From Ignavibacteria bacterium (GTDB taxonomy: Bacteria > Bacteroidota > Ignavibacteria > Kapaibacteriales > UBA2268): a DNA stretch of 43,107 nucleotides. Where the stretch lies: positions 1 to 43,107 of the forward strand of contig JAAYTD010000085.1 of assembly GCA_012518115.1 (NCBI GenBank). The letters run 5' to 3'. Of this stretch, positions 21,806 through 39,518 are shown piece after piece (within the stretch, counting starts at the first letter, position 1; every line of letters starts with the position of its first letter). Under the pieces are notes generated by a model, which was not told the origin of the DNA, ran no database searches, and saw only the letters and a program-made list of their open reading frames with translations. The position numbers and the translations under genes were made by a program.

Positions 21806-21879
21806 TCCTGAGTAGCTCAGCTGGTTAGAGCATCTGACTGTTAATCAGAGGGTCGGGGGTTCAAGTCCCTCCTCAGGAG
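21806..21879 (+). tRNA. tRNA-Asn (GUU)
   Basis: A complete 74-base cloverleaf. Acceptor TCCTGAG (21806-21812) pairs with CTCAGGA (21872-21878), with discriminator G. The anticodon stem is TCTGA/TCAGA with loop CTGTTAA, so the anticodon is GTT at 21840-21842. GGTTCAAGTCC forms the T loop. CCA is not encoded. It stands alone with a promoter upstream and a terminator downstream. Confidence 0.97.
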
Positions 21880-24903: not shown

Positions 24904-26472
24904 ATGGCGAAAAAACAAGCAAAAGAAAAAACAATAGAAGTAGCGTTGTGGGAAACAGCAAATAAATTGCGTGGAACTGTTGAGCCTTCGCAATATAAGC
25001 ACGTGGTATTGGCGTTGATTTTTTTGAAGTTCGCGAGCGATAAATTTGAAGAGCAACGACAAAAACTAATTGACGACGGTAAAGAGAAATATGTCGAAAG
25101 ACCAGAGTTTTATAATATGAACAACGTCTTTTTTCTAAAAGAAGAGACCCGTTGGACATACATTGTCAGCCAAGCTCGTCAAAACGACATCTCGCTGATA
25201 ATTGATTCTGCTTTACACACTATAGAAGAAGACAATGAAGCGCTGAAAGGTGCATTACCCAACAACTATTTTTCGAGTCTTGGACTTGACACATCTAAAT
25301 TAGCCGCTCTTATCAGCGAAATAGATAGTATAGACACATTAAAGGACAAAGAACAAGATGTTATCGGACGTATTTATGAGTATTTTCTGAGCAAGTTTGC
25401 CATTGCTGAAGGAAAAGGGAAAGGCGAGTTTTACACGCCCAAAAGCATTGTAAATTTAATTGTTGAGCTGATAGAACCTTATAAAGGCTTTATTTATGAT
25501 CCATGTTGCGGTTCGGGCGGAATGTTTGTGCAATCTATAAAGTTTATCGAGGCACATCACGGCAACCAAAAAGAGGTTTCCATTTACGGACAGGAAAATA
25601 TAAACACAACATATAAATTGGCGAAAATGAATCTTGCCATTCGAGGCATTTCTGCTAATTTAGGCGAAAAAGCCGCTAACACTTTTAGCAACGATTTACA
25701 TAAAGATTTGAAAGCTGATTTTATTATGGCAAATCCTCCTTTCAACCAAAAAGTTTGGCGAGAAGAAAACGAACTTTTAGACGACCCACGCTGGAAAGGT
25801 TACGAAGTACCACCCAAAAGCAACGCTAATTATGGTTGGATACTTCACATGGCATCTAAGCTTTCGGAAAATGGTGTGGCAGGATTTCTTTTAGCAAACG
25901 GAGCATTGAGCGGTGGCGGTGATGAATATAAAATACGTAAACAGCTGATTAAAAATGATTTGGTTGAAGCTATCTTGATTTTGCCACAAAATATGTTTTA
26001 TACCACTAATATAAGCGTAACACTTTGGATATTGAATAAAAACAAAAAAGAATACGTAAGGGCTATACATCAACGAAATTACCGAGACAGACAAAAAGAA
26101 ATTCTTTTTATGGATTTGCGGGAAATGGGCGAGCCGTTTGAGAAAAAATACATACAATTTTCTGAAAAAGATATTAGAAAAATCGCTGATACTTATCATA
26201 GCTGGCAATGTACGGATGAATTGAATTCGCCCTATCAAGATATTCCCGAATTCTGCTATTCTGCAGGTATAGAAGAAGTTAGAGAGAAAGATTATTCGCT
26301 TGTACCGAGCAGATACATAGAATTTGTAAATCGTGATGAAGAAATTGATTTTGACGAAAAAATGAAAACTTTACAGCAGGAAATTGGTGAATTATTGCAA
26401 GAAGAAAAAAAATCGCGAGAAGAATTGTTGGCTGTTTTTAAAAATTTAGGTTATAAAATTGAGTTAAAATGA
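24904..26472 (+). CDS. hsdM: Type I restriction-modification DNA methyltransferase (M subunit)
   Basis: Adenine-N6 methyltransferase of a type I restriction system; two copies join one HsdS. An N-terminal helical HsdM_N region covers about 8-150. The cofactor motif DPCCGSGG is at 199-206 and the catalytic motif NPPF at 277-280 (ADFIMANPPFN). GEFYTPKSIVNLIVELI (175-190) is also typical. The 522 residues are full length. Its stop overlaps the next start in ATGA, so the second gene is coupled to it. No Shine-Dalgarno is visible. Confidence 0.96.
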   Translation: MAKKQAKEKTIEVALWETANKLRGTVEPSQYKHVVLALIFLKFASDKFEEQRQKLIDDGKEKYVERPEFYNMNNVFFLKEETRWTYIVSQARQNDISLIIDSALHTIEEDNEALKGALPNNYFSSLGLDTSKLAALISEIDSIDTLKDKEQDVIGRIYEYFLSKFAIAEGKGKGEFYTPKSIVNLIVELIEPYKGFIYDPCCGSGGMFVQSIKFIEAHHGNQKEVSIYGQENINTTYKLAKMNLAIRGISANLGEKAANTFSNDLHKDLKADFIMANPPFNQKVWREENELLDDPRWKGYEVPPKSNANYGWILHMASKLSENGVAGFLLANGALSGGGDEYKIRKQLIKNDLVEAILILPQNMFYTTNISVTLWILNKNKKEYVRAIHQRNYRDRQKEILFMDLREMGEPFEKKYIQFSEKDIRKIADTYHSWQCTDELNSPYQDIPEFCYSAGIEEVREKDYSLVPSRYIEFVNRDEEIDFDEKMKTLQQEIGELLQEEKKSREELLAVFKNLGYKIELK

Positions 26473-28508
26473 ACGAAAAGCAAATAAATCCTTTTGAATT
26501 AGATGATGAGTATGTTATATATTCACTCATAAACAAAGAATTTTTACCGGAAGAATACCATGAACTTGAATATAAATCCGGTAAAGATGGATTTCCAAAA
26601 GAGATTTGGAAAACATATTCAGCCTTTGCCAACACAAATTCTGGTATTATTATCATTGGTATAAAAGAGAAAAGAGGTGTTTTTCTAGTTGAGGGATTGA
26701 CAGACGAACAAATTTCAAACTATAAAAAGCATTTTTGGGACAGCTGCAACAATCCGAATACCGTTAGTGTCAATCTTTTGAGTAACGAAGATATAAAAGT
26801 AATTGAGACAAATTCAAAAAAACTGTTAGTTATTCGAGTTCCTTTCGCTCATCGTACCAAAAGACCGGTTTTTCTTACACGAAATCCATTTGGAAACACG
26901 TACAAACGCAACTACGAAGGCGACTACAGATGTACTGATGACGAAGTAAGAAGGATGCTAGCTGAAGGCGGCACAGAGCTTAAAAGAGATAACTTGCTTT
27001 TAGAAAATTTCACGATAGACGATTTAGATCCTGTCAGTATTCGTCAGTTTCGTCAATTGTTTTCATCTACAAGACCAGGGCACCCTTGGCTTGCTTTAGA
27101 AGATAAAGACCTACTAAAGAAACTCGGAGCTTATCGCATTGACCGAAAAACTGGACAAGAAGGAATTACGCTTGCTGGGCTGTTAATGTTTGGCAAAGGA
27201 GACAGCATACGAGAACAAGATGCTTTACCTGATTACTTTCCTGATTTTAGAGAGCGTTTGTCAATAGATGAAAAAGTGCGTTGGACGGATCGTATTTATC
27301 CAGACGGAACTTGGGAAAGCAATTTACTTCAATTTTATTTGAAAGTATTGCCCAAATTATCATCTACATTACCTAAACCATTCCGCTTAGATAAAGATGA
27401 ACGTGTTGATGAAACACCTGCTCATATTGCGCTGCGTGAAGCTTTTGTAAATGCATTAGTGCATACTGATTATTCGTTAAGTGGCAACATTATCATTGAA
27501 CTTGATACCGAACAATTTGTATTTTCAAATCCCGGTACACTACTTGTTTCTTTGGAACAATATTATGCGGGAGGAGTGAGTGAGTGTCGTAATCCTGCAT
27601 TACAACAAATGTTTATGCTGATTGGTCGTGCTGAAAAAGCTGGTAGTGGAGTGGACAAAATTATGTCAGGTTGGCAAGATTCTCATTGGCGAAAACCTTT
27701 TCTTGTGTTAGAAAACAAACCAGATAAAGTTAAACTCACTTTACCTATGTTTAGCGTATTGCCTAAACAAGTACTAAACGAGTTAAATACTATTTATGGC
27801 GATGTGAGCCATTTTAGTCCCGACGAACTAACTGCACTTTCTTTCTGTCTGATAGAGGGCTCAATTTCCAACCACCGCTTGCAATATGTGTTAAATATGC
27901 ACAGTTCAGACATTACGAAAATGCTTAAAAAATTGTGTGTGGGTGATTATTTAGAAGCTGAAAATTATGGTCGCTGGACTACTTATAAAATTAAACATAA
28001 GGTTGCAAGCTCAGGCGGAAACCTTGCAAGCTCAGGCGGAAAGGTTGCAACCTCAAGCGGAAAGGTTGCAAGCTCAGGCGGAAAGGTTGCAAGCTCAGGC
28101 GGAAACCTTGCAACCTCAAGCGGAAACCTTGCAACCTCAGGTGGAAAGGTTGCAAGCTCAGGCGGAAACCTTGCAACCTCAGGCGAAAAGGTTGCAAGCT
28201 CAGGCGGAAAGGTTGCAAGCTCAGGCGGAAACCTTGCAAGCTCAGGCGGAAACCTTGCAAGCTTAACCGAACTTCCTAAAAGGATAAGTATAGCAAAAAT
28301 GGAAGATATAATTATGAGAATTTGTAAGGATAATTACGTTAAAAAAGAAGAGATTGCAACATTATTGAACCGTTCAGAAAACTACATAAGAAATGAAATT
28401 TTACCTAAAATGATAAAAGAGAAAAAAATAGAGAAAAAATATCCGTACACACACAATCATCCTGAACAAGCTTATAAAACTACAGAGGAATATGCGGAAA
28501 AACTATAA
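26469..28508 (+). CDS. AlbA_2 / HATPase_c_4 DNA-binding protein with heptapeptide repeats
   Basis: A 679-residue protein of the COG2865 type. The AlbA_2 (Schlafen-like) domain is about 25-165 (EYHELEYKSG ... FANTNSGIIIIGIKE). A GHKL-type ATP-binding domain holds EAFVNALVHTDYS (324-336), FSNPG (352-356) and AEKAGSGVDKI (388-398). A helix-turn-helix part (about 440-505) follows. Then come twelve seven-residue repeats of form (V/L)A(S/T)S(G/S)G(K/N) at 512-595. The C-terminal winged-helix stretch (about 600-665) has KKEEIATLLNRSENYIRNEIL. It overlaps hsdM by 4 bases and hsdS by 17. Its role in restriction is unknown; control of the system is plausible. Confidence 0.85.
   Translation: MNEKQINPFELDDEYVIYSLINKEFLPEEYHELEYKSGKDGFPKEIWKTYSAFANTNSGIIIIGIKEKRGVFLVEGLTDEQISNYKKHFWDSCNNPNTVSVNLLSNEDIKVIETNSKKLLVIRVPFAHRTKRPVFLTRNPFGNTYKRNYEGDYRCTDDEVRRMLAEGGTELKRDNLLLENFTIDDLDPVSIRQFRQLFSSTRPGHPWLALEDKDLLKKLGAYRIDRKTGQEGITLAGLLMFGKGDSIREQDALPDYFPDFRERLSIDEKVRWTDRIYPDGTWESNLLQFYLKVLPKLSSTLPKPFRLDKDERVDETPAHIALREAFVNALVHTDYSLSGNIIIELDTEQFVFSNPGTLLVSLEQYYAGGVSECRNPALQQMFMLIGRAEKAGSGVDKIMSGWQDSHWRKPFLVLENKPDKVKLTLPMFSVLPKQVLNELNTIYGDVSHFSPDELTALSFCLIEGSISNHRLQYVLNMHSSDITKMLKKLCVGDYLEAENYGRWTTYKIKHKVASSGGNLASSGGKVATSSGKVASSGGKVASSGGNLATSSGNLATSGGKVASSGGNLATSGEKVASSGGKVASSGGNLASSGGNLASLTELPKRISIAKMEDIIMRICKDNYVKKEEIATLLNRSENYIRNEILPKMIKEKKIEKKYPYTHNHPEQAYKTTEEYAEKL
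28002..28265 (+). repeat. Twelve 21-bp tandem repeats inside the AlbA_2 gene
   Basis: Twelve full units (28002-28253) plus 12 bases of a thirteenth. The unit is (G/C)TTGCAAgCTCAGGCGGAAA(G/C). Variation is limited to a few positions: GGTT or CCTT at the joint, AAGC or AACC after the core, and three units with CAAGC, CAGGT or CAGGCG. Each unit centres on the palindrome TTGCAA. Because 21 divides by three, all reading frames stay open, which creates long spurious frames. Confidence 0.97.
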
Positions 28509-29643
28509 ACGATTAGGCGATTATATACAGCTAGTGGATGAAAGAAATTCTGATTTGAAAGTTTCTAAACTTGTCGGCGTAACTATAAACAAAGAATTTA
28601 TTCCGTCTGTAGCAAACACAATTGGCACGGATATGACAAATTACAAAATAATCCGTAAAGACCAATTTGCTTGTTGTTTGATGCAGGTGCGTAGGGATAA
28701 AAAAATTCCGATTGCACTGTTTCTGGAAGAAGAACCAGCTATTATTACACAAGCCTATCCTGTTTTTGAAATTGTTGAAACTCATGTATTGTTGCCTGAA
28801 TATCTTATGATGTGGTTTAGTCGAGTAGAATTTGATAGGCAAGCCTGTTTTCATGCCGTAGGCGGAGTGCGTGGAAGTTTGGAGTGGAGTGATTTCTGCA
28901 ATTTTATGCTTCCTATTCCTGATATTACACAACAACAAGCCATAGTAGATGAATACCAAACTATAGAGAGACGCATACAGATAAACGAAGAGCTCTGCCA
29001 AAAATTAGAAGAAACAGCACAAGCGTTATATAGAAAATATTTTATAGATGATATTGATCCTGAGAATTTACCGGAAGGGTGGAGAATGACAGAAATTAAA
29101 GAAATAGGTGAAGTTATTACGGGAAAAACTCCACCAACAGATGACGAGGATAATTTTGGTAACTTTATGCCTTTTATAACTATTCCTGATATGCACAATA
29201 ATGTTTTTACTTTCAAAACGGAAAGATATCTTTCTAAAAAGGGTGCATTATCACAAAAGAATAAAACTTTACCTGAAAACTCAATTTGTGTTAGTTGTAT
29301 TGGGACGGCAGGATTGGTTACAATTGTTACAGAACCAAGTCAAACAAATCAACAAATAAATAGTATTGTTTGTCACAAAGATTTTAGTGTTTACTATATT
29401 TTTCTAACAATGAGAAATCTAAGCCATATAGTACAAAGTCATGGCGAAAAAGGTTCTGTCGGAAACAATCTAAATAAACAAGAATTTTCAAACCTGATGT
29501 TGGTGGTGCCATCAGGTGATATGATGAAAGAATTTCAAAATAGGGTAGAACCTATTTTTGAAGTTATAAAATATCGAAGTAAAGAAACTCATAAACTAAA
29601 AGAATTACTATCTTTGCTGTTAGCAAAGATGGGGAGAGAATAA
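28492..29643 (+). CDS. hsdS: Type I restriction-modification specificity subunit
   Basis: Reads the two halves of the target site. The 383 residues hold two target-recognition domains. The first (about 1-150) ends with the conserved helix DITQQQAIVDEYQTIERRIQINEELCQKLEETAQALYRKYF. The second (about 190-345) starts ENLPEGWRMTEIKEIGEVITGKTP and ends NKQEFSNLMLVVPS. The N-terminus is short, starting at the RLGDYIQLVDERN strand. It overlaps the AlbA_2 gene by 17 bases. The recognised sequence cannot be read from the protein. Confidence 0.93.
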   Translation: MRKNYKRLGDYIQLVDERNSDLKVSKLVGVTINKEFIPSVANTIGTDMTNYKIIRKDQFACCLMQVRRDKKIPIALFLEEEPAIITQAYPVFEIVETHVLLPEYLMMWFSRVEFDRQACFHAVGGVRGSLEWSDFCNFMLPIPDITQQQAIVDEYQTIERRIQINEELCQKLEETAQALYRKYFIDDIDPENLPEGWRMTEIKEIGEVITGKTPPTDDEDNFGNFMPFITIPDMHNNVFTFKTERYLSKKGALSQKNKTLPENSICVSCIGTAGLVTIVTEPSQTNQQINSIVCHKDFSVYYIFLTMRNLSHIVQSHGEKGSVGNNLNKQEFSNLMLVVPSGDMMKEFQNRVEPIFEVIKYRSKETHKLKELLSLLLAKMGRE

Positions 29644-29646
29644 ATA

Positions 29647-30303
29647 ATGACAATCCAGCACGAACATAATCGCAAAAGTATTCGCCTAAAAGGATACGAT
29701 TATTCGCAAGAAGGATTGTATTTTATAACGATTTGTTGTCAAGATGAAATTTGTAGGTTTGGACATATTGAAAACGACGAAATGATATGTAACCAATATG
29801 GAATTGTGGCATACAACGAATGGATGAAAACGCCACAAATACGTTCAAATATTACGTTGCACGAATTTGTTGTGATGCCCAATCATATCCACGGTATTAT
29901 TGAAATAAATCACGATACGGAATTATATTTCCAAAACCGTATGGGCGAATTGTATATCCCGAATCGTATGGACGAATTATATCCCCAAAACCGTATGGAC
30001 GAATTGCATACCAAAAGCTGTAGGGGCGAATTGCATTCGCCCATTCCAGCGGGCGTATTCAATACGCCCCTACGGATGCGGTCGCCGTCGCAAACGATTG
30101 GTGCAATCGTCCGCGGGTACAAATCGGCGGTTACAAAACAATTGAATGCGTTGGGAATGATCGAAAAATTATGGCAAGGCAATTATTACGAACATATTAT
30201 ACGCAATGAAAAATCATATTTGCATATTTCTGAATATATTCACAACAATCCCATACAATGGATAAACGATAAATTTTATAATCATGAAACTTACAGAAAA
30301 TGA
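29647..30303 (+). CDS. REP-associated tyrosine transposase (Y1_Tnp, RAYT)
   Basis: A single-strand DNA transposase of the IS200-like HUH type. The metal-binding HUH pair is H80-I-H82 in VVMPNHIHGII. The attacking tyrosine is likely Y180 or Y181 in WQGNYYEHIIRNE. Residues about 91-146 are an insertion not normal for the family, made of nine-residue repeats (ELYxxNRMD) and an REP-like palindrome at DNA level. The gene starts three bases after hsdS and ends 20 bases inside hsdR, so it sits in the restriction operon without breaking it. No flanking transposon ends were found. The frame is intact. Confidence 0.88.
   Translation: MTIQHEHNRKSIRLKGYDYSQEGLYFITICCQDEICRFGHIENDEMICNQYGIVAYNEWMKTPQIRSNITLHEFVVMPNHIHGIIEINHDTELYFQNRMGELYIPNRMDELYPQNRMDELHTKSCRGELHSPIPAGVFNTPLRMRSPSQTIGAIVRGYKSAVTKQLNALGMIEKLWQGNYYEHIIRNEKSYLHISEYIHNNPIQWINDKFYNHETYRK
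29920..30027 (+). repeat. Four 27-bp tandem repeats inside the RAYT gene
   Basis: Four degenerate units begin at 29920, 29947, 29974 and 30001. They start GAATT and end near CGTATGGRC or TGTAGGGGC. They encode ELYFQNRMG, ELYIPNRMD, ELYPQNRMD and ELHTKSCRG. The last unit runs directly into the palindrome at 30021. Confidence 0.9.
30021..30072 (+). repeat. REP-like double hairpin inside the RAYT gene
   Basis: TAGGGGCG at 30021 pairs with CGCCCCTA ending at 30072. Between them are two perfect hairpins: GGGCGAAT/ATTCGCCC (30024-30042) and GGGCGTATT/AATACGCCC (30051-30069). The second has the same stem as the hairpin at 14218-14236. RAYT proteins act on such palindromes. Confidence 0.88.
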
Positions 30304-33300
30304 ATTAGAAAAGGTATTTATTGAATTATTAGAGCAAGAGGGCTACGCACATAGTGCAGGTGCTTCGTTGCCACGTTCCTCAATGAACGAGGTGCTAATA
30401 GAAGAAGATTTGCGTAGTTTTTTGCTTTCGCGCTATAAGTCAGACAAACTGACGGAAAACGAGCTTAGTTCTATCATCCAACAACTTAAGTCGCTTTCTT
30501 CTAATGACTTATACGAAAGTAATAAGCGGTTTATGCAGATGCTTTCAAACGGTTTTATTCTGAAAAGAGATGACCACAAGCAGAAAGATATTTACATTGA
30601 GTTTATTGACTATAGATCTTTAGAAAAAAATCTATATCTTAAATCCGAAAAAGCTACTTCTCTAGTTGCGGAAAATAATGAAGACAATAATATCTACAGA
30701 TTTGTAACTCAGTTGAAAATCGAAGGCAACGAAAAACGTATTCCCGACGGAATTATTTATGTAAACGGCTTGCCATTAGTGGTTTTTGAATTTAAGACTA
30801 CCATTAAAGAAGAAACTACAATTCACGATGCTTACAAGCAACTTACAGTGCGTTATCGTCGCGATATTCCCGAACTTTTCAAATACAACGCTTTTTGTGT
30901 TATCAGCGATGGCGTAAACAGTAAGGCAGGCTCATTGTTTGCTCCTTACGAGTTTTATTATGCATGGAGAAGAATAGAAAGTTTATCAAAAGATGTTGAC
31001 GGAATTGACAGTATGTTTACCTTAATCAAAGGAATGTTCAACAAAAACCGTTTTCGAGACATACTTCGTAATTTTATCTTTTTTCCCGATACAGAAAAAA
31101 ATGAAAGTAAAATTGTTTGTCGCTATCCTCAATATTATGCTGCCCGTGCTTTATACGAAAATATCAAGCAAGTTCAAAAACCTCATGGAAATGGAAAAGG
31201 CGGAACATATTTCGGAGCAACTGGCAGTGGCAAAAGCTTCACGATGCTTTATCTTACACGTTTGCTGATGAAAAGCGAATATTTTGCTAGTCCAACAATT
31301 GTACTTATTACAGATCGTACCGATTTAGACGACCAGCTAGCTGCACAATTTGTAAATGCCAAGGAATTTATAGGTGATGATACAGTGCAAAGCGTAGAAA
31401 GTCGTGCAGATTTACGCGAAAAACTACAAGGCAGACAGAGCGGAGGCGTTTTTCTTACTACTATCCAGAAATTTGCTGAAGACACGGAATTGCTTACCGA
31501 ACGCTATAATGTGATTTGCATTTCAGATGAAGCACATCGCACACAAACAAATCTTGACCAAAAAATCCGTATTACCGAGCAAGGAGTTATTAAATCGTTT
31601 GGTTTTGCTAAATATCTGCACGATTCTTTGCCTAATGCTACTTACGTTGGTTTTACGGGAACACCTATAGATGCTACTTTAGATGTTTTCGGTCCAGTGG
31701 TAGATTCTTACACAATGACCGAATCAGTTAAAGATGAAATTACTGTGCGTATCGTTTACGAAGGCAGAGCTGCTAAAGTAGCTTTAGACAATAGCAAGTT
31801 AGAGGAGATAGAGCGTTACTACGAAGCGGCTGCGGAAGCTGGAGCTAATGAATATCAAATTGAGCAAAGTAAAAAAGAAACTGCTAAAATGAACGCTATT
31901 CTTGGCGATCCAAAACGTTTACAAAGTATTGCTAAAGATTTTGTAGAACATTATGAAAAACGTGTTTCGGAAAAAGCAACGTTGAAAGGTAAAGCTATGT
32001 TTGTTTGTAGCAACAGAGAAATAGCTTACGATCTGTTTAAGCGGATTATTGCACTTCGTCCCGAATGGAATGAAATACGTGCAGCAGAAGAAGGAGCAGA
32101 ACTTTCCGACAAGGATAAAAGGGAATTGAAACCAATAGAGCGAATAAAAATGGTAATGACACGCTCAAAAGACGACGAGAAAGAACTTTGGGATTTGTTA
32201 GGAACAAAGGAAGACAGAAAAGAGCTCGACAGACAATTCAAAAATGAGAAATCTAACTTTAAAATAGCTATCGTGGTTGATATGTGGCTAACAGGGTTCG
32301 ACGTGCCTTTTTTGGATACTATTTATATTGACAAACCAATACAGCAACACAATTTAATACAAACTATTTCGCGAGTAAATCGCCGAGTGGAAGGGAAAAA
32401 CAAAGGGCTTGTGGTTGATTATATTGGCATCAAAAAACAGATGAATTTGGCACTTGCTCAATACGATAAAATTGACAGTGATAATTTTGAAGATATATCT
32501 CAATCACTTATGATAATGCGAGAGCATTTGGATTTGTTGAAACGCTTGATGCACAAGTTTGACGATACAAAGTATTTCAAAGGTTCAAACTTAGAAAAAC
32601 TAAATACGCTTAATTTGGCTGCTGAGTTTGTGCAACAAACCAAAGAAACTGAAAGTAAATTTATGGGGCTTACAAAACGTTTGAAAGCTGCTTATGATAT
32701 TTGCGTGGGAAGCGAACAAATAACACCGGAAGAGCGAGATTATGTACATTTTTATCTAGCTATTCGTTCTATTATTTTTAAACTGATTAAAGGCGACACT
32801 CCCGATGTGGTACAAATGAACAACCGTGTGCGTCAGATGATTGAAGAAGCTTTACGAAGTGATGGTGTTGAGGAAATATTGAAAATTGGCGATGAAGCCA
32901 AAAGTGAACAAGATTTGTTTGACGAAGAATATTTGGCAAAAATCAATAAGATAAAGCTACCTAATACGAAAATCAAACTCTTGCAGAAACTTTTAGCAAA
33001 AGCTATTGGGCAACTGCGAAAAATTAATCGTATAAAAGGAATTGACTTTAGCAATCGAATGCAAGAATTAGTGAATCGATACAACAACCGTTCAGCAAAC
33101 GATATTTTGCGAAGCGAGGTATATGAAGAGATGGCTGAAAAGCTTACCGCTATGATTTGGGACGTACACAAAGAATTTTCTGCTGGCGAAGAGTTAGGAA
33201 TTGATTTTGAAGAAAAAGCCTTTTATGATATTCTAAAAGAGTTGTGCGTGAAATACGACTTTACATATCCCGACAACAAAATGATAGAATTGGCTAAAAA

Positions 33301-33496
33301 AGTCAAAAAGCTAGTTGATAGTCAGGCCTGTTATCCCGATTGGAATAAGCGTGAAGATATAAAGTCTACGTTGAAAGCCAGATTGATTTTATTGCTTGAT
33401 GAATACAATTATCCGCCTGCTGTGTTAGATGAAGCTTATACAGAAATTTTTGAACAAGCGGAAAATTTTAAGAAAAATATTAGATATAGTTATTAA
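30284..33496 (+). CDS. hsdR: Type I restriction endonuclease and translocase subunit
   Basis: Cuts DNA after ATP-driven translocation. The 1070-residue protein has the PD-(D/E)xK nuclease site at D155 and E169-F-K171 (RIPDGIIYVNGLPLVVFEFK). P-loop GATGSGKS is at 311-318, the DEAH box at 415-418 (ISDEAHRTQ), then GFTGTPID and the motif with GFDVPFLDTIYIDKP and QTISRVNR. The C-terminal helical part binds the methyltransferase. All key residues are present, so it looks active. The start overlaps the RAYT end by 20 bases. It converges on the permease gene with a 31-base gap and no clear terminator. Confidence 0.96.
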   Translation: MKLTENELEKVFIELLEQEGYAHSAGASLPRSSMNEVLIEEDLRSFLLSRYKSDKLTENELSSIIQQLKSLSSNDLYESNKRFMQMLSNGFILKRDDHKQKDIYIEFIDYRSLEKNLYLKSEKATSLVAENNEDNNIYRFVTQLKIEGNEKRIPDGIIYVNGLPLVVFEFKTTIKEETTIHDAYKQLTVRYRRDIPELFKYNAFCVISDGVNSKAGSLFAPYEFYYAWRRIESLSKDVDGIDSMFTLIKGMFNKNRFRDILRNFIFFPDTEKNESKIVCRYPQYYAARALYENIKQVQKPHGNGKGGTYFGATGSGKSFTMLYLTRLLMKSEYFASPTIVLITDRTDLDDQLAAQFVNAKEFIGDDTVQSVESRADLREKLQGRQSGGVFLTTIQKFAEDTELLTERYNVICISDEAHRTQTNLDQKIRITEQGVIKSFGFAKYLHDSLPNATYVGFTGTPIDATLDVFGPVVDSYTMTESVKDEITVRIVYEGRAAKVALDNSKLEEIERYYEAAAEAGANEYQIEQSKKETAKMNAILGDPKRLQSIAKDFVEHYEKRVSEKATLKGKAMFVCSNREIAYDLFKRIIALRPEWNEIRAAEEGAELSDKDKRELKPIERIKMVMTRSKDDEKELWDLLGTKEDRKELDRQFKNEKSNFKIAIVVDMWLTGFDVPFLDTIYIDKPIQQHNLIQTISRVNRRVEGKNKGLVVDYIGIKKQMNLALAQYDKIDSDNFEDISQSLMIMREHLDLLKRLMHKFDDTKYFKGSNLEKLNTLNLAAEFVQQTKETESKFMGLTKRLKAAYDICVGSEQITPEERDYVHFYLAIRSIIFKLIKGDTPDVVQMNNRVRQMIEEALRSDGVEEILKIGDEAKSEQDLFDEEYLAKINKIKLPNTKIKLLQKLLAKAIGQLRKINRIKGIDFSNRMQELVNRYNNRSANDILRSEVYEEMAEKLTAMIWDVHKEFSAGEELGIDFEEKAFYDILKELCVKYDFTYPDNKMIELAKKVKKLVDSQACYPDWNKREDIKSTLKARLILLLDEYNYPPAVLDEAYTEIFEQAENFKKNIRYSY

Positions 33497-33527: not shown

Positions 33528-35777
33528 TTAATTAATTATTTTTTTCCCGTTTGAATGCACAAAAAGAACGTTTCCAATATCGTCATATCCTTCAAAAAGA
33601 GAAAGATCGCCTTCTCTTTTAAAGGCATTTTCATTAAAACCTATCATTGTAAGTCCAGCATCAAGTGATCTTTTATTAATAATTTCTTTTACGGAAATGT
33701 GTTCATCTCGCTCAATAATTTCAATATTAGCTTCTGTAATTGGCATACGTCCGCTATTAATTAGTTGCTTCATTTTTTGTTTAACTTCTGCTATTTCATG
33801 AGCGAAACAGATATTAAATATTTTTATGTTAGCTTTTCTCCAAGTCGGGTATCCCATTATGATAAAGCCAAGTAGAATCATTAGATTTGTGTTCACGGTA
33901 TCAAAGCTACGCACCCAAATATGAATACCGTTTTTATATAAAATAGGTTTGCGACTTGTGCCTAAAATACAGACATCAAATCCGCCTGCACTTACCATAC
34001 GGAAATTAGTTGTTATATCGTGCAAATCATTCCCGGGCTCACTTTTCATATACTCAAAAATCACCATATTATTTTCCATTCCTGCAATTCCCGGAGTTTG
34101 AACGGATTGCGATATAGCTGATGTAGTTGATGGTGAAATAAGCGTATCGATATAAACTTGATTAGATGTATCGAGATTATTGAGCAAACGTTCTAATTCA
34201 ACTTTTGCTTGTTCGTTTGTCTTTTTTGAGTAGTAGCCATCTATTAAATGTAAGTATGTGCCAAATCCATATTTATAAGAAATCCAGTTTAGTAATTTCA
34301 GTGCAGAATCTCGTTTAAAAGTGTTTCTTGAAATACATATTGCACTTGGTCGCCATTCTTCTTCCGGCATAGTTTGTTCATGGTCATCATCAGTTGAAAC
34401 TCTTTTTCGCTTGTTTTGAAGATATATTTGCAATGCTCTATTCATTTGGAAAAGCGTGTTTGCAAATATCGCTGAAAATCCTTTGCGGTCGCTGTGATAA
34501 TGTTCCATATAAATATAGAGTACAACGATAGCTATATATGCTACAAGCGTATAAATCACACTGATTTGAAACATTGCCCAAACTGAAATAACAAATCCCG
34601 CCAATGAAATATACCATTTCGATTTGAATGTAGGTCTATATGCCGGCGAAGAGCCGAAGTGGTGAAGAAAAGAAATCAAACAGAGACTTCCGTATGTAAC
34701 TAAAAAGAACATAGAGATAATTTGTGCCACCGAATCAACACTACCGAACGCAACAAAAACTATAGCTATCATGCAAGTAATCAATGAAGCATTAGCAGGT
34801 TCATTATCTTTTGCCCGTGTTTGGCTAAGCCATCTATTGTTGCCCCTCATAGGTAGCGAGTCGTCTAAAGCAAGAGCTTGCAATGTGCGAGGTCCCACCA
34901 TAATAGAACTCAAAGCTGATGTAAACGTGCAGGCAGCTAAGCCAAGTGGAATTAGAATCTTACCACCAATAGCTATGTCCGACATAATTAATTGGTTGTT
35001 TAATAAATCTTCAGGCAGTGCAGAGTTTGCAAACTTTAAGCAAATAAGCAGATATAAAACTAATCCTGTAAATGTTGCCGCAGTAGTGCCTAGCGGGATA
35101 GATTTTCCCGGATTTTTCAAATCGCCCGAAAGTCCCACTCCAGCAGTAATTCCTGTAAATGCGGGAAATATGATAGCTAAAACTAAAAACATATTTCCTG
35201 TATTTTTTAATGTAGCGTTTGCACTAAAATAATCTATTCCTGTGCCTCCTACCGGACTACCAAAGAAAAACGCAAGTATAGCAATCAAAACAATTGTTCC
35301 CGCAACATACAACACTTTCAAGCCCACATTAGCTCCTTTTGTTAAAACCAAGACCGATAGCAAGAGCATTGCGGGAATACTTATTACTTGTTTAGGAAGA
35401 ATAATATTGAAGTTGGCGTAAATATAATTGAATAGGAAATCAAAAGCTTCAGTAAAAGCTACTATATAAAAAGCTACGCTAATTGTCTGCGAAAGATAGA
35501 GTAATATGCCTAAAGTAGCGCCAATATTAAGTCCGAATGAACGTGAAATGATAAAATATTCGCCGCCCCCTTCAACGCGTTTGTTTGTAGCTAGTTCCGA
35601 TATGGCAAGAGCTGTAGGAATAGTAACTAAATGTCCAATCATAATGAGAAGAAATGTTCCCCATAAGCCGACTGAACCAACAGCATATCCGAAACGCAAA
35701 AAAACAATAGCTCCAACAATTGTAGAAAGAGCGGTAAAATAAACAGCGGAAGTTCCGAATTTTTTGGTATTGCTCAT
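33528..35777 (-). CDS. SLC12-like amino acid / cation-chloride permease
   Basis: A 749-residue transporter of the APC superfamily. The membrane part (about 10-430) has about 12 helices. The first helix has STIVGAIVFLRFGYAVGSVGLWG, as in Na-K-Cl cotransporters, and GGGEYFIISRSFG is the conserved loop after helix 2. The C-terminal 290 residues are soluble and resemble the tail of that family (PSAICISRNTFKRDSALKLLNWISY; LIDGYYSKKT). The substrate is not certain. It has its own promoter upstream. Confidence 0.85.
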   Translation of the reverse strand: MSNTKKFGTSAVYFTALSTIVGAIVFLRFGYAVGSVGLWGTFLLIMIGHLVTIPTALAISELATNKRVEGGGEYFIISRSFGLNIGATLGILLYLSQTISVAFYIVAFTEAFDFLFNYIYANFNIILPKQVISIPAMLLLSVLVLTKGANVGLKVLYVAGTIVLIAILAFFFGSPVGGTGIDYFSANATLKNTGNMFLVLAIIFPAFTGITAGVGLSGDLKNPGKSIPLGTTAATFTGLVLYLLICLKFANSALPEDLLNNQLIMSDIAIGGKILIPLGLAACTFTSALSSIMVGPRTLQALALDDSLPMRGNNRWLSQTRAKDNEPANASLITCMIAIVFVAFGSVDSVAQIISMFFLVTYGSLCLISFLHHFGSSPAYRPTFKSKWYISLAGFVISVWAMFQISVIYTLVAYIAIVVLYIYMEHYHSDRKGFSAIFANTLFQMNRALQIYLQNKRKRVSTDDDHEQTMPEEEWRPSAICISRNTFKRDSALKLLNWISYKYGFGTYLHLIDGYYSKKTNEQAKVELERLLNNLDTSNQVYIDTLISPSTTSAISQSVQTPGIAGMENNMVIFEYMKSEPGNDLHDITTNFRMVSAGGFDVCILGTSRKPILYKNGIHIWVRSFDTVNTNLMILLGFIIMGYPTWRKANIKIFNICFAHEIAEVKQKMKQLINSGRMPITEANIEIIERDEHISVKEIINKRSLDAGLTMIGFNENAFKREGDLSLFEGYDDIGNVLFVHSNGKKIIN

Positions 35778-35821: not shown

Positions 35822-35854
35822 CAAATATACAAAACTCCTAATTAATACAACAAT
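35822..35854 (-). promoter_or_regulatory. Promoter of the permease gene
   Basis: On the minus strand TATATTTG (35829-35822) is a perfect -7 element; the predicted start is about 40 bases before the ATG. The -33 element is weaker: GTTG at 18 bases or ATTG at 21 bases. The sequence 35820-35890 is duplicated around the MITE-like copy 3. Confidence 0.6.
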
Positions 35855-35990: not shown

Positions 35991-35999
35991 AAGCAGAGA

Positions 36000-36098
36000 A
36001 AAATTTTGTGCAGATTTAAAAGGAGTAAGCCTCTCAAGTGCTGTCAAAGACGCTTTCCTAAGAGGCTCTATATTATGCTCAAAAAATTAAAAAATTAA
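36000..36098 (-). ncRNA. Candidate small RNA, unit 1
   Basis: Predicted from the promoter at 36103-36134 (minus) and the hairpin AGCCTCT/AGAGGCT (36028-36034 with 36061-36067). An inner stem is possible (GTC-AAA-GAC with AAGT/GCTT around it). After the stem the RNA reads ACUCCUUUU. The outermost stem pair seen in units 2 and 3 is lost here. Ends are inferred; no classic terminator was found. Confidence 0.55.
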
Positions 36099-36102
36099 CA
36101 TA

Positions 36103-36134
36103 CAAATATACAAAAATTATTTTAACTATGCAAA
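36103..36134 (-). promoter_or_regulatory. Promoter of small-RNA unit 1
   Basis: On the minus strand TTTG (36134-36131), exactly 20 bases, then TATATTTG (36110-36103). A near-perfect palindrome, TGCA-AATTTTAATTAAAATT-C-TGCA (36129-36153), overlaps the -33 element and could bind a regulator. Confidence 0.75.
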
Positions 36135-36245
36135 TTTTAATTAAAATTCTGCATTTTTTTCTAATTTTGTTAAAAAATCTTGGTTCAGATATTATCTCAT
36201 AAAATAAAAACAGGCTACATAATGAAGCAGAACTTGTGAAGTAAC

Positions 36246-36344
36246 AAGCAGAGAAAAATTTTGTGCAGATTTAAAAGGAGTAAGCCTCTCAAGTGCTGTC
36301 AAAGACGCTTTCCTAAGAGGCTTTATATTATGTTCAAAAATTAA
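36246..36344 (-). ncRNA. Candidate small RNA, unit 2
   Basis: Same layout as unit 1. Stem AAGCCTCT (36282-36289) pairs with AGAGGCTT (36316-36323), a full 8 bp. The core is identical to the other units. The pyrimidine run CUCCUUUU lies at 36280-36273 on the minus strand. Confidence 0.55.
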
Positions 36345-36348
36345 CATA

Positions 36349-36380
36349 CAAATATATAAAAATTATTTTAATTATGCAAA
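36349..36380 (-). promoter_or_regulatory. Promoter of small-RNA unit 2
   Basis: On the minus strand TTTG (36380-36377), 20 bases, TATATTTG (36356-36349). The same palindrome as in unit 1 spans 36375-36399. Confidence 0.75.
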
Positions 36381-36489
36381 TTTTAATTAAAATTCTGCAT
36401 TTTTTTCTAATTTTATGCAAGTTTTGGTTCAGATATTATCTCATAAAATAAAAACAGGCGATATAATGAAGCAGAACTCGTGAAGTAAC

Positions 36490-36587
36490 AAACATAGAAA
36501 AATTTTATGCAGATTTAAAAGGAGTAAGCCTCTCAAGTGCTGTCAAAGACGCTTTCCTAAGAGGCTTTAATTATGTTAAAAAATTTA
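36490..36587 (-). ncRNA. Candidate small RNA, unit 3
   Basis: Stem AAGCCTCT (36526-36533) with AGAGGCTT (36560-36567). The core is identical to the other units although the flanks are the most diverged. This unit is the first on the minus strand, nearest to the orphan gene. Confidence 0.55.
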
Positions 36588-36591
36588 AGCA

Positions 36592-36623
36592 CAAATATAT
36601 AAAATTTATTTTAATTGTGCAAA
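36592..36623 (-). promoter_or_regulatory. Promoter of small-RNA unit 3
   Basis: On the minus strand TTTG (36623-36620), 20 bases, TATATTTG (36599-36592). Both boxes and the spacing are kept although the spacer has changed. The palindrome of units 1 and 2 is decayed here. Confidence 0.72.
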
Positions 36624-36846
36624 TTTTTAATTAAAAAATTCACATTTTTTTGTTCTAGTCTTATAAAAAACTTCATTTTATTAAGATTTATAAGGTGCTT
36701 ATATTTATCTAACAATTAGTATAAGATAGACTTAGTTTATTATTCGAAACTTCTATAAACACACTTATTAATTTCGTCATCTTTTTTTTGATAAAAGAAG
36801 CTTTAAAGTTTGCTTTCAGAAATCTTATTATGGTTTGAAATTTACA

Positions 36847-37584
36847 TTAGCTGTTTACATCTGCATTGTCTTTGGAGCTTATATAATCCAATAAAAAATA
36901 AGAAAGCAAAATGAGTTCGTCTTTGTCTTGTTCATTTACTTCTAAAATATCCTTCGCAACAGCACAAACCTGATAGTTTTTTTCATAAATACTTTCGTTA
37001 CTATTGTCATCAAAGAATTCATTATATAATTCATCTATATGTTCTCTATGATAGATGTGTACGAAGTCCGATACATTGTCCAATATTGCTAATTTCATCA
37101 AAATATGTTTAGCACTATAATTGCTTTTTTCAATTGTTTGAATTTTCTTGAATGGGTTAGTTTCAGATACTATGCTCTCTAATAATCCTTTGATATTTTC
37201 GTTGAAATATTCCTCTGCTTCTTCCCTTGAAGCATTTTCTTTGTTTTCCTTTTTAATATAATAGGTTTGATTATCCTGATTAAGTTTTACTTCAAAGTCT
37301 TTCGCATTAGTAACCTTAGAGAAACCTAAAACATTATTTGTAGTTTGTTCTAAAAAATTACACAGATAAGCACCCGGCATTCTGTCTTTAGCATTTTCCA
37401 TAGTGTTTGTGTAATCATCTAAAGTCAACGTGCCGTCTGTTATTTTCTTTCTATATATCTTCCAGTTTGAAAGCAGCTCGTCAATTTCTTTTTGATCTTT
37501 CAACTTAGTTTTTCTTTTAAACTTTTTCCAAAGATCTTTGATTTGAGCTTTTTGTTCTTCTGTAAGTGAACTTTTCTTTTCCAT
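36847..37584 (-). CDS. Orphan protein of unknown function, possibly McrB-N-like
   Basis: A 245-residue, charged, soluble protein that I do not recognise securely. The first 40 residues are a Lys/Glu-rich helix. The middle has MPGAYLCNFLEQTTNNVLGF. A later stretch, YSAKHILMKLAILDNVSDFVHIYHREHIDELYNEFF (about 156-191), loosely recalls the N-terminal part of some McrB-type restriction proteins. No ATPase domain follows, so at most this would be a stand-alone piece. AAAGGAG lies before the ATG. A decayed promoter lies about 150 bases upstream next to a MITE-like element. The small-RNA array follows its 3' end. Confidence 0.6.
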   Translation of the reverse strand: MEKKSSLTEEQKAQIKDLWKKFKRKTKLKDQKEIDELLSNWKIYRKKITDGTLTLDDYTNTMENAKDRMPGAYLCNFLEQTTNNVLGFSKVTNAKDFEVKLNQDNQTYYIKKENKENASREEAEEYFNENIKGLLESIVSETNPFKKIQTIEKSNYSAKHILMKLAILDNVSDFVHIYHREHIDELYNEFFDDNSNESIYEKNYQVCAVAKDILEVNEQDKDELILLSYFLLDYISSKDNADVNS

Positions 37585-37736
37585 TTTTTCTCCTTTGTAA
37601 GTAAATTATTTATTTTAATACTAGCTATATCTATTTTAGTTTTTTTATCTTTATTAAAATAAAATCAGTATAACACAATATATTAATAATATTTTATTTG
37701 TTTCAACTTGTCGCTTCGCTTATATTAAATATACAA

Positions 37737-37744
37737 AAAATATA
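37737..37744 (-). promoter_or_regulatory. Remnant -7 element of a duplicated promoter
   Basis: On the minus strand TATATTTT, one base off TAnnTTTG, in a context (TATACAAAACTC on the plus strand) shared with the permease promoter at 35822. The MITE-like copy 3 starts 14 bases away, inside what would be the spacer to the -33 element. It would serve the orphan gene if still active. The remaining 37585-37736 is AT-rich without other signals. Confidence 0.4.
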
Positions 37745-37757
37745 CAAAACTCTTATT

Positions 37758-38080
37758 ATACCATTTTGAATAATATATTAGTTCAATGATGTTTTAAAAT
37801 TCCCCTTCGGAACGAAGGGTGGCAAGCGAAGCTTGACAGGGTAGTCTATTAAAAAATTAACAACAAACCCCGTAGGGGTGAAATTATTATAGAAAAAAAA
37901 TTAGCAGAATGACAAACAAACCCCGTAGGGGTGACATACCGTTGTCGTTATGGCTAATTAAAAATGTCACCCCTACGGGGTTTTATAAAAATTTGGATTT
38001 CACAATACTATAATAATGTCATCCCTACGGGATTAATTAGGATAACTACGTTTAGAGCAAATTATAATTCAATTTGGTAT
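37758..38080. repeat. MITE-like element, copy 3
   Basis: A 323-bp element with ends ATACCATTTTGAATAAT and ATTCAATTTGGTAT. It carries the CCCCTTCGGAACGAAGG and GGCAAGCGAAGCTTGACAGGG modules and several CCCCGTAGGGGTGA repeats. A perfect 20-bp inverted repeat (37918-37937 with 37964-37983) lies inside, which makes this copy longer than copies 1 and 2. Confidence 0.78.
37918..37983. repeat. Perfect 20-bp inverted repeat with CCCCGTAGGGGTGA cores
   Basis: AAACCCCGTAGGGGTGACAT pairs with its complement at 37964-37983 around a 26-base loop. Related single copies are at 37866 and 38012, and ATCCCTACGGGAT occurs near 14390. On a transcript this would fold into a very stable stem. Confidence 0.9.
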
Positions 38081-38146
38081 TAATCCTACAATTCATTTCT
38101 AAAAAAATCTTGAAATCTATAAAAAATCAAAAATTATTGTTTAAAA

Positions 38147-38187
38147 ATAAGACAAAAATCCCGATTAAAAATATCTTCAATCGGGAA
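38147..38187 (-). terminator. Rho-independent terminator of the porin gene
   Basis: TCCCGATT at 38159-38166 pairs with AATCGGGA at 38179-38186. On the minus strand TTTTTGTC follows. It lies about 70 bases beyond the porin stop. Confidence 0.85.
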
Positions 38188-38255
38188 ATTTTTGCTATAA
38201 ATATCTGAACTGCTAAATTTGGTTAGCAGTTGTTTTTGTAAAGGATTAAGTAGAA

Positions 38256-39518
38256 TTAAAACTTCGACTTTAAAATAGTAGGATTCACGTTCAGTGAAAT
38301 AAACATCCAGTTTTGTATGCGATTTTTATCCCCACCTTTGATTTGGAAAAATGCATCTGTGCCGAACATCATCGAGTAACCGCCTTGTAGCGTGATATAC
38401 GAAAGAATAGGGTAGGTAACCGTTAAATCAATTTCAGTGCCTAATCCTTTTTTCTCTTCGCCGTTCACATAAACAGGTTGTTGAGCGAAAAAGCTATGGG
38501 CTGCAAGATCTATTGTAAATTTATTTGCAGGTTTGAAAACAAGTGAGCCATAAAAATCTAGCAAACCATAATCCCCAAACGGTGAAGCGTAGAAATAATC
38601 CATTGTACCATAATATTTATGGTTAGTGCCATAAATCGGATTAAAAGCGTTGAATTTTTCGCTTGTTTTGTCGTCGCCTGAAAGATAATCAGCGCCCAAA
38701 GCTGCTGAAAATGTAGGTGTAAACTTGTACTCTCCTTTAAAATTTCCCATTAATGCGCTTAAATCTAATCCTGCTGCCGATTTTCCCATTTGATAATAAA
38801 ATGAGCCGACTAAATTTAAATTGCCAATGTTATAGATAAGGTTTGTTCCTGCCGTTTGCATATTGTTAATGCTTGGTTCTGCCTCAGTGCCAGCCTGAAA
38901 ACCAAGATTCATAAATAGTAAGGAGCCCGTAAAGTTTTTGTTGTTATTATATAAGTAGTGAGCTGTTTGCATAAGCTTGTAAGGTTGCCCACCAAATTCG
39001 TAAAATGTGCCTTGACGCGGAGATTTTGGCATTTGGTTATATGCTAAGACTAAATGTAGCCGATGCTCTTTGTTGTCAAAACCCATTTTAAGAGCATCGT
39101 GCCAGCGACTTGCCTGATGCCAGTCAGGTGATCCAAGAATACGACCGTCATCATAAGACAGTGCTTGACGTCCTAATTGTAGAAACCAATTGTTTTGGGT
39201 TAGTTTTGCCCATGCTTCGTTTAGTGTGAAATTAGGAGCATCGTCAACTTGCGGTTTTTGTCCCCAAAGCGAAATGTCTTGTCCCGATAGTCCCATCGAT
39301 AAAAAACCGTTATCGTAGCCAAGAGTTAAACGAGCTCTATTAGAAATAAAAGCAATAGGCTTGTCGTCTTCTCTTAACGGTAGCTTTGCACCATGATTAA
39401 ATTCGAAACGTGGTCTAATCTGTGCCTTCATAAAAAAATCTCCTCCTGCTTGAGCAAAAACCATATTTTCAGGTATAAGGAGTACAATAGCAATGATAAA
39501 TAGATAAATCTTTTTCAT
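38256..39518 (-). CDS. Outer-membrane porin, alginate-export family
   Basis: A 420-residue beta-barrel protein. The signal peptide ends at VFAQA (about residue 23). The mature part begins GGDFFMKAQIRPRFEFNHG and continues with SNRARLTLGYDNGFLSMGLSGQDISLWG and WFLQLGRQALSYDDGRILGSPDWHQASRWHDAL, the pattern of the alginate_exp family. Many short amphipathic strands follow. Such proteins often act as general or substrate-specific outer-membrane channels; alginate itself need not be the substrate. It is monocistronic with a terminator. Confidence 0.85.
   Translation of the reverse strand: MKKIYLFIIAIVLLIPENMVFAQAGGDFFMKAQIRPRFEFNHGAKLPLREDDKPIAFISNRARLTLGYDNGFLSMGLSGQDISLWGQKPQVDDAPNFTLNEAWAKLTQNNWFLQLGRQALSYDDGRILGSPDWHQASRWHDALKMGFDNKEHRLHLVLAYNQMPKSPRQGTFYEFGGQPYKLMQTAHYLYNNNKNFTGSLLFMNLGFQAGTEAEPSINNMQTAGTNLIYNIGNLNLVGSFYYQMGKSAAGLDLSALMGNFKGEYKFTPTFSAALGADYLSGDDKTSEKFNAFNPIYGTNHKYYGTMDYFYASPFGDYGLLDFYGSLVFKPANKFTIDLAAHSFFAQQPVYVNGEEKKGLGTEIDLTVTYPILSYITLQGGYSMMFGTDAFFQIKGGDKNRIQNWMFISLNVNPTILKSKF

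Follow-up and report, generated by a model that had tools for sequence, protein, structure and literature searches.

A tandem array of three near-identical short units lies on the minus strand at 35991-36657, within a single intergenic region of the 43,107-nucleotide stretch of Ignavibacteria DNA analysed here (the window), and on balance it probably represents a tandemly triplicated ('sibling') candidate small-RNA gene. The units were delimited by repeat search and alignment:

36422-36657, minus strand: unit 3 (U3), full, the first that would be transcribed
36180-36414, minus strand: unit 2 (U2), full
35991-36168, minus strand: unit 1 (U1), its 3' side cut off after CTCTGCTT

Unit starts are spaced 246 and 243 bp apart. 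The earlier note had described three tandem units of about 245 bp; the tandem repeat is real, but the truncation of U1 leaves two full units and a partial one. A DNA search of the organism's own genome recovered only the array and short chance matches, and no further copy of it, tandem or dispersed. The array is situated between a type I restriction-modification locus (24904-33496) and a truncated McrB gene, and its immediate neighbours are as follows:

36847-37584, minus strand: McrB-like N-terminal part (245 aa), upstream neighbour, without AAA domain and without mcrC
33528-35777, minus strand: amino-acid permease / K-Cl cotransporter-like protein, downstream neighbour, with its own TATATTTG at 35824-35831

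The 245-aa protein shares 50% identity with the N-terminus of a McrB-like protein in genome G022 (L061), which goes on to an AAA domain and has McrC encoded after it. Neither the AAA domain nor McrC is present in the window, and the array therefore adjoins a truncated restriction gene. The minus-strand gene at 36847-37584 is possibly the remnant of a decayed or split McrBC locus.

Every unit carries the sequence TTTG-N20-TATATTTG, with a spacer of exactly 20 nucleotides in all three cases:

36592-36623, minus strand: U3 promoter TTTG-N20-TATATTTG, -33 box 36623-36620, -7 box 36599-36592
36349-36380, minus strand: U2 promoter TTTG-N20-TATATTTG, -33 box 36380-36377, -7 box 36356-36349
36103-36134, minus strand: U1 promoter TTTG-N20-TATATTTG, -33 box 36134-36131, -7 box 36110-36103

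When a single unit is shuffled with its dinucleotides preserved, 0.36% of the shuffles contain the pattern TTTG-N20-TAnnTTTG; the units are duplicates of one another, so that their promoter and stem matches count once and not three times. The same -7 and -33 boxes are found in Bacteroides and represent the phylum's promoter type (PMC7366714). Promoter statistics were compiled from 443 kb of the organism's own genome, comprising the window and a further 400 kb, in which TTTG-N19-21-TAnnTTTG occurs 47 times, the array's own three promoters included. Thirty-two of these 47 matches are intergenic, although intergenic DNA makes up 15%, and for 30 of the 47 a gene on the same strand follows within 400 bp; as a control, the motif in reverse yielded 12 matches, none of them intergenic. 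The spacers of the intergenic matches peak sharply at N20 (19 matches) and N19 (10 matches), together 29 of 32, with no spacer-length peak in the coding DNA of the sample. One more match is located just 5' of the tRNA-Asn gene at 21806. The earlier attribution of these boxes to the main sigma factor thus agrees with the genome's own intergenic spacing, which peaks at N20, and the peak at N19-20 combined with the promoter type of the phylum renders the promoter reading well supported: each unit of the array carries a promoter that is valid for the organism. Across the units none of the 12 box positions is variable as opposed to 4 of the 20 spacer positions, a contrast that alone is not significant. 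An AT-rich dyad overlaps the -33 box on the minus strand (36616-36644 in U3, 36375-36399 in U2 and 36129-36153 in U1), and its arms read TGTG/CACA in U3 and ATGCA/TGCAT in U2 and U1, with matching changes in both arms. It is possibly an operator or a cruciform; the matched arm changes amount to one event in promoter DNA and were left out as evidence.

Downstream of the promoters the units share a block that is identical in all three, flanked by sequences that differ, and that encompasses a hairpin and a CU-rich tail:

36508-36566, minus strand: invariant 59-bp block of U3, hairpin and CU-rich tail
36264-36322, minus strand: invariant 59-bp block of U2, hairpin and CU-rich tail
36009-36067, minus strand: invariant 59-bp block of U1, hairpin and CU-rich tail
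36528-36565 (U3), 36284-36321 (U2) and 36029-36066 (U1), minus strand: folding hairpin GCCTCTTAGG...CTTGAGAGGC
36517-36524 (U3), 36273-36280 (U2) and 36018-36025 (U1), minus strand: exposed CU-rich tail CTCCTTTT

An identical block of about 57 bases had been noted before, and the alignment bears it out at 59 bp. The fold computed for the minus-strand core consists of a 12-bp stem with an internal AAA/A loop, capped by a small hairpin, and an exposed UACUCCUUUU comes directly 3' of the stem. This core is more stable (z -3.2, P 0.004) than shuffles that preserve its dinucleotides, whereas folding of the plus-strand core is no better than chance (z -0.9), a strand specificity that backs the minus-strand hairpin of the earlier note; a GC-rich perfect 7-bp stem occurs in 1.2% of core shuffles. 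The hairpin resembles an intrinsic terminator but has a poor U-tract, and a terminator scan called none in the array because the U-tract is too weak. The best matches of a covariance model of the core elsewhere are intrinsic terminators at gene ends, which makes the hairpin look terminator-like and is what would be expected of the 3' hairpin of a small RNA. High-confidence small RNAs of B. thetaiotaomicron end in intrinsic terminators (PMC7366714).

In the small-RNA reading each unit would be read on the minus strand from its housekeeping-sigma promoter of the Bacteroidota type, with the RNA starting approximately 6-7 nt past the -7 box. The transcript would begin with roughly 20-30 AU-rich nucleotides, continue into the 12-bp terminator-like stem with its structured apical part and then into UACUCCUUUU, after which it probably ends. 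The terminator-like hairpin suggests a length of about 70-80 nt rather than the roughly 100 bases proposed earlier, and with so poor a U-tract transcription may run on into the unit tail. The principal ATG-started frame across the core, 51 aa long in U2, is interrupted in U1 and U3, which favours a non-coding role. Such an RNA may act in trans by base pairing of its 5' AU segment and/or its CU-rich tail with purine-rich sequence near start codons, a step that, taken alone, we put forward tentatively and rate as rather improbable; three copies would raise the RNA dose, as in other sibling small RNAs.

Relatives of the array were sought widely. Rfam covariance models gave no match in the array at the gathering threshold or at E values up to 5, in keeping with the earlier remark that no described RNA family with this core was known to the note's author. 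DNA searches of overlapping sets of genomes (54 from the family, 123 from the order, 391 from the class and 395 from the phylum) found no homologue, and neither did a second genome of the same genus contain one; several short DNA matches that were inspected have no hairpin. The covariance model of the core likewise detected no homologue at the level of the order (123 genomes) or of the class (391 genomes): the order-level matches are at chance level, those in the own and same-genus genomes lie inside genes, and the three matches from the class are intrinsic terminators of the ordinary kind, located at gene ends. A match of approximately 34 bp at 89% to the unit tail in G458 is single-copy, follows a gene end and is probably due to chance. 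No convincing match emerged from plasmids, phages or viral contigs, and scanning 84,980 species, each represented by one genome, for a sequence pattern returned 12 matches, none with the stem. Among the genomes searched the array appears to be confined to one species, and since no homologue was found there are no changes in the stem, compensating or breaking, to be counted.

Constraint on the core was gauged by comparing the units. The invariant run is longer than a random placement of differences gives, both for U2 and U3 (P 0.002, or P 0.0009 with substitutions only) and in a three-way test in which each gap counts as one event (0/50000). The long run sustains the earlier suggestion of selection on the core within the array only, where it is indistinguishable from gene conversion, a process from which conservation inside a tandem array can stem. 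These figures also bear on an unlikely alternative, namely that the array is a non-functional recent tandem duplication in which the promoter and terminator-like hairpin of a remodelled restriction locus were copied twice, the core seeming constrained only through its youth, base composition or gene conversion. The position of the array after a truncated mcrB, the cut-off U1 and the failure to find a homologue in the second same-genus genome or beyond all fit such an origin, as does a further 36-bp identical stretch that U2 and U3 share in the unit tail; what speaks against it is that the invariant run exceeds random placement at P 0.002 or less and falls on the block that folds, in company with intact promoters.

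A coding role for the array was weighed on account of hydrophobic open reading frames that start with TTG (LRGLLLLNLHKIFLCLLLHKFCFIM):

36215-36292, minus strand: TTG-started hydrophobic ORF in U2, 25 aa
36441-36536, minus strand: TTG-started hydrophobic ORF, 31 aa
35975-36037, minus strand: TTG-started hydrophobic ORF, 20 aa

These would be tandem small hydrophobic peptides akin to type I toxins, with the start held within the hairpin. All three units keep this frame open, its codons 1-16 holding four differences, every one of them synonymous; moreover, toxins of the Ldr type are likewise arranged as tandem repeats and are hydrophobic peptides. We nevertheless consider this quite unlikely, given that the TTG start sits in the stem with no upstream ATG, that the C-termini are unlike (20, 25 and 31 aa), with K/E, M/I and the loss of a stop among the later changes, that Leu/Phe frames arise by chance in pyrimidine-rich DNA, and that the terminator-like hairpin would stop the RNA ahead of the frame. 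The long direct repeats Ldr/Rdl of E. coli resemble the array in being tandem, with a promoter each and a possible hydrophobic peptide, but differ from it in that the TTG start here lies inside the stem, the peptide ends are not conserved and the plus strand of the array contains no TTTG-N19-21-TAnnTTTG, i.e. no antisense promoter was found opposite the putative toxin. Very unlikely, in our estimation, is a repeated 5' leader or attenuator of the downstream permease (33528-35777): it is encoded on the same strand with its ATG about 230 nt 3' of the U1 core, yet a TATATTTG box of its own stands 46 nt ahead of the ATG, such a leader has no need for three separate promoters, and the fetched locus of a distant family homologue (G026, 30% identity) is without such an element. 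A relative of the REP-associated tyrosine transposases is encoded 6 kb away (29647-30303) and the hairpins are repeated, which brings to mind a plus-strand or DNA-level element, either a REP-like hairpin mobilised by a RAYT-like transposase or a terminator pair. REP elements with a RAYT form many dispersed hairpin copies per genome, with a GTAG mark expected beside the stem; the three copies here all lie within the array with none dispersed, no GTAG adjoins the stem and plus-strand folding is at chance level, all of which makes this explanation highly improbable. The RAYT-like gene itself (29647-30303, plus strand) lies between hsdS and hsdR of a type I restriction locus and scores 65 bits with its NCBIfam model, below the cut-off of 80. 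Type III toxin-antitoxin systems (ToxIN-like), which we take to comprise pseudoknot repeats of about 35-45 nt beside a ToxN-like toxin gene, were considered and rejected for the array, where the repeats measure about 245 bp and the neighbours are a partial McrB and a permease.

Returning to the small-RNA reading, the array would act, if at all, by analogy with multicopy or sibling small RNAs. LhrC1-5 of Listeria monocytogenes (PMC4132741) similarly comprise several near-identical short copies with CU-rich unpaired motifs, whose binding close to a target's Shine-Dalgarno site has been established; they possess three such motifs per RNA whereas the putative RNA here has one, their regulation and targets are demonstrated whereas the RNA here is a candidate, and they belong to another phylum, use another promoter type and have no sequence relation to the array that we could find. 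AbcR1/2, OmrA/B and PrrF1/2 (PMC4211561) are likewise duplicated small-RNA genes adjacent in one intergenic region, but these are proteobacterial pairs with known expression and targets, whereas the array has three members and no sequence match to them. Intergenic small RNAs of the GibS type in Bacteroides (PMC7366714) share the promoter type (-33 TTTG, -7 TAnnTTTG), and the single-stranded 5' end and 3' terminator hairpin of GibS have counterparts in the 5' end and the terminator-like hairpin of the RNA predicted here; GibS, however, is conserved within Bacteroides, in contrast to a triplicated element with a weak U-tract found in one species only. If transcribed, the array would be a triplicated small RNA in Bacteroidota, where few small RNAs have known functions, and a small testable case of how young small-RNA genes arise and multiply; for now it is no surprise but a good candidate for annotation.

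Blocking of Shine-Dalgarno (SD) sites by the CU-rich tail is possible, although two enrichment tests gave no support for it. Against 317 start regions drawn from about 18% of the genome the tail reached -10 kcal/mol in 28 cases as compared with 31.9 in shuffled controls, and the 14-nt complement of the tail shows no genome-wide enrichment (110 occurrences vs 181 for the reversed control). GGAG-like SD sites precede 34 of the 317 starts, a minority, as opposed to 6 at a control position. The McrB-like N-terminal gene has an SD-like AAAGGAG that is complementary to CUCCUUU of the tail over 7 bp. That the array might be a lineage-restricted new RNA family working with the neighbouring restriction loci, for instance by regulating this gene, strikes us as highly unlikely; if true, an RNA family tied to restriction loci would constitute an RNA-controlled defence module in Bacteroidota.

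Several further features were observed in the surroundings and elsewhere in the genome. A protein of the AlbA_2/Schlafen type is encoded between hsdM and hsdS (26469-28508, plus strand) and becomes strongly repetitive towards its C-terminus (KVASSGGNLATSSG...). The gap upstream of the McrB-like gene (37585-38260) contains several palindromes, CCCCTACGGGG / CCCCGTAGGGG, with flanking TGACAT. Finally, four copies of TTTAAAAGGTGAAA lie within a 4.6-kb stretch on another contig (L110, L111; G000:C80:99431-104002), which suggests a second repeat region.
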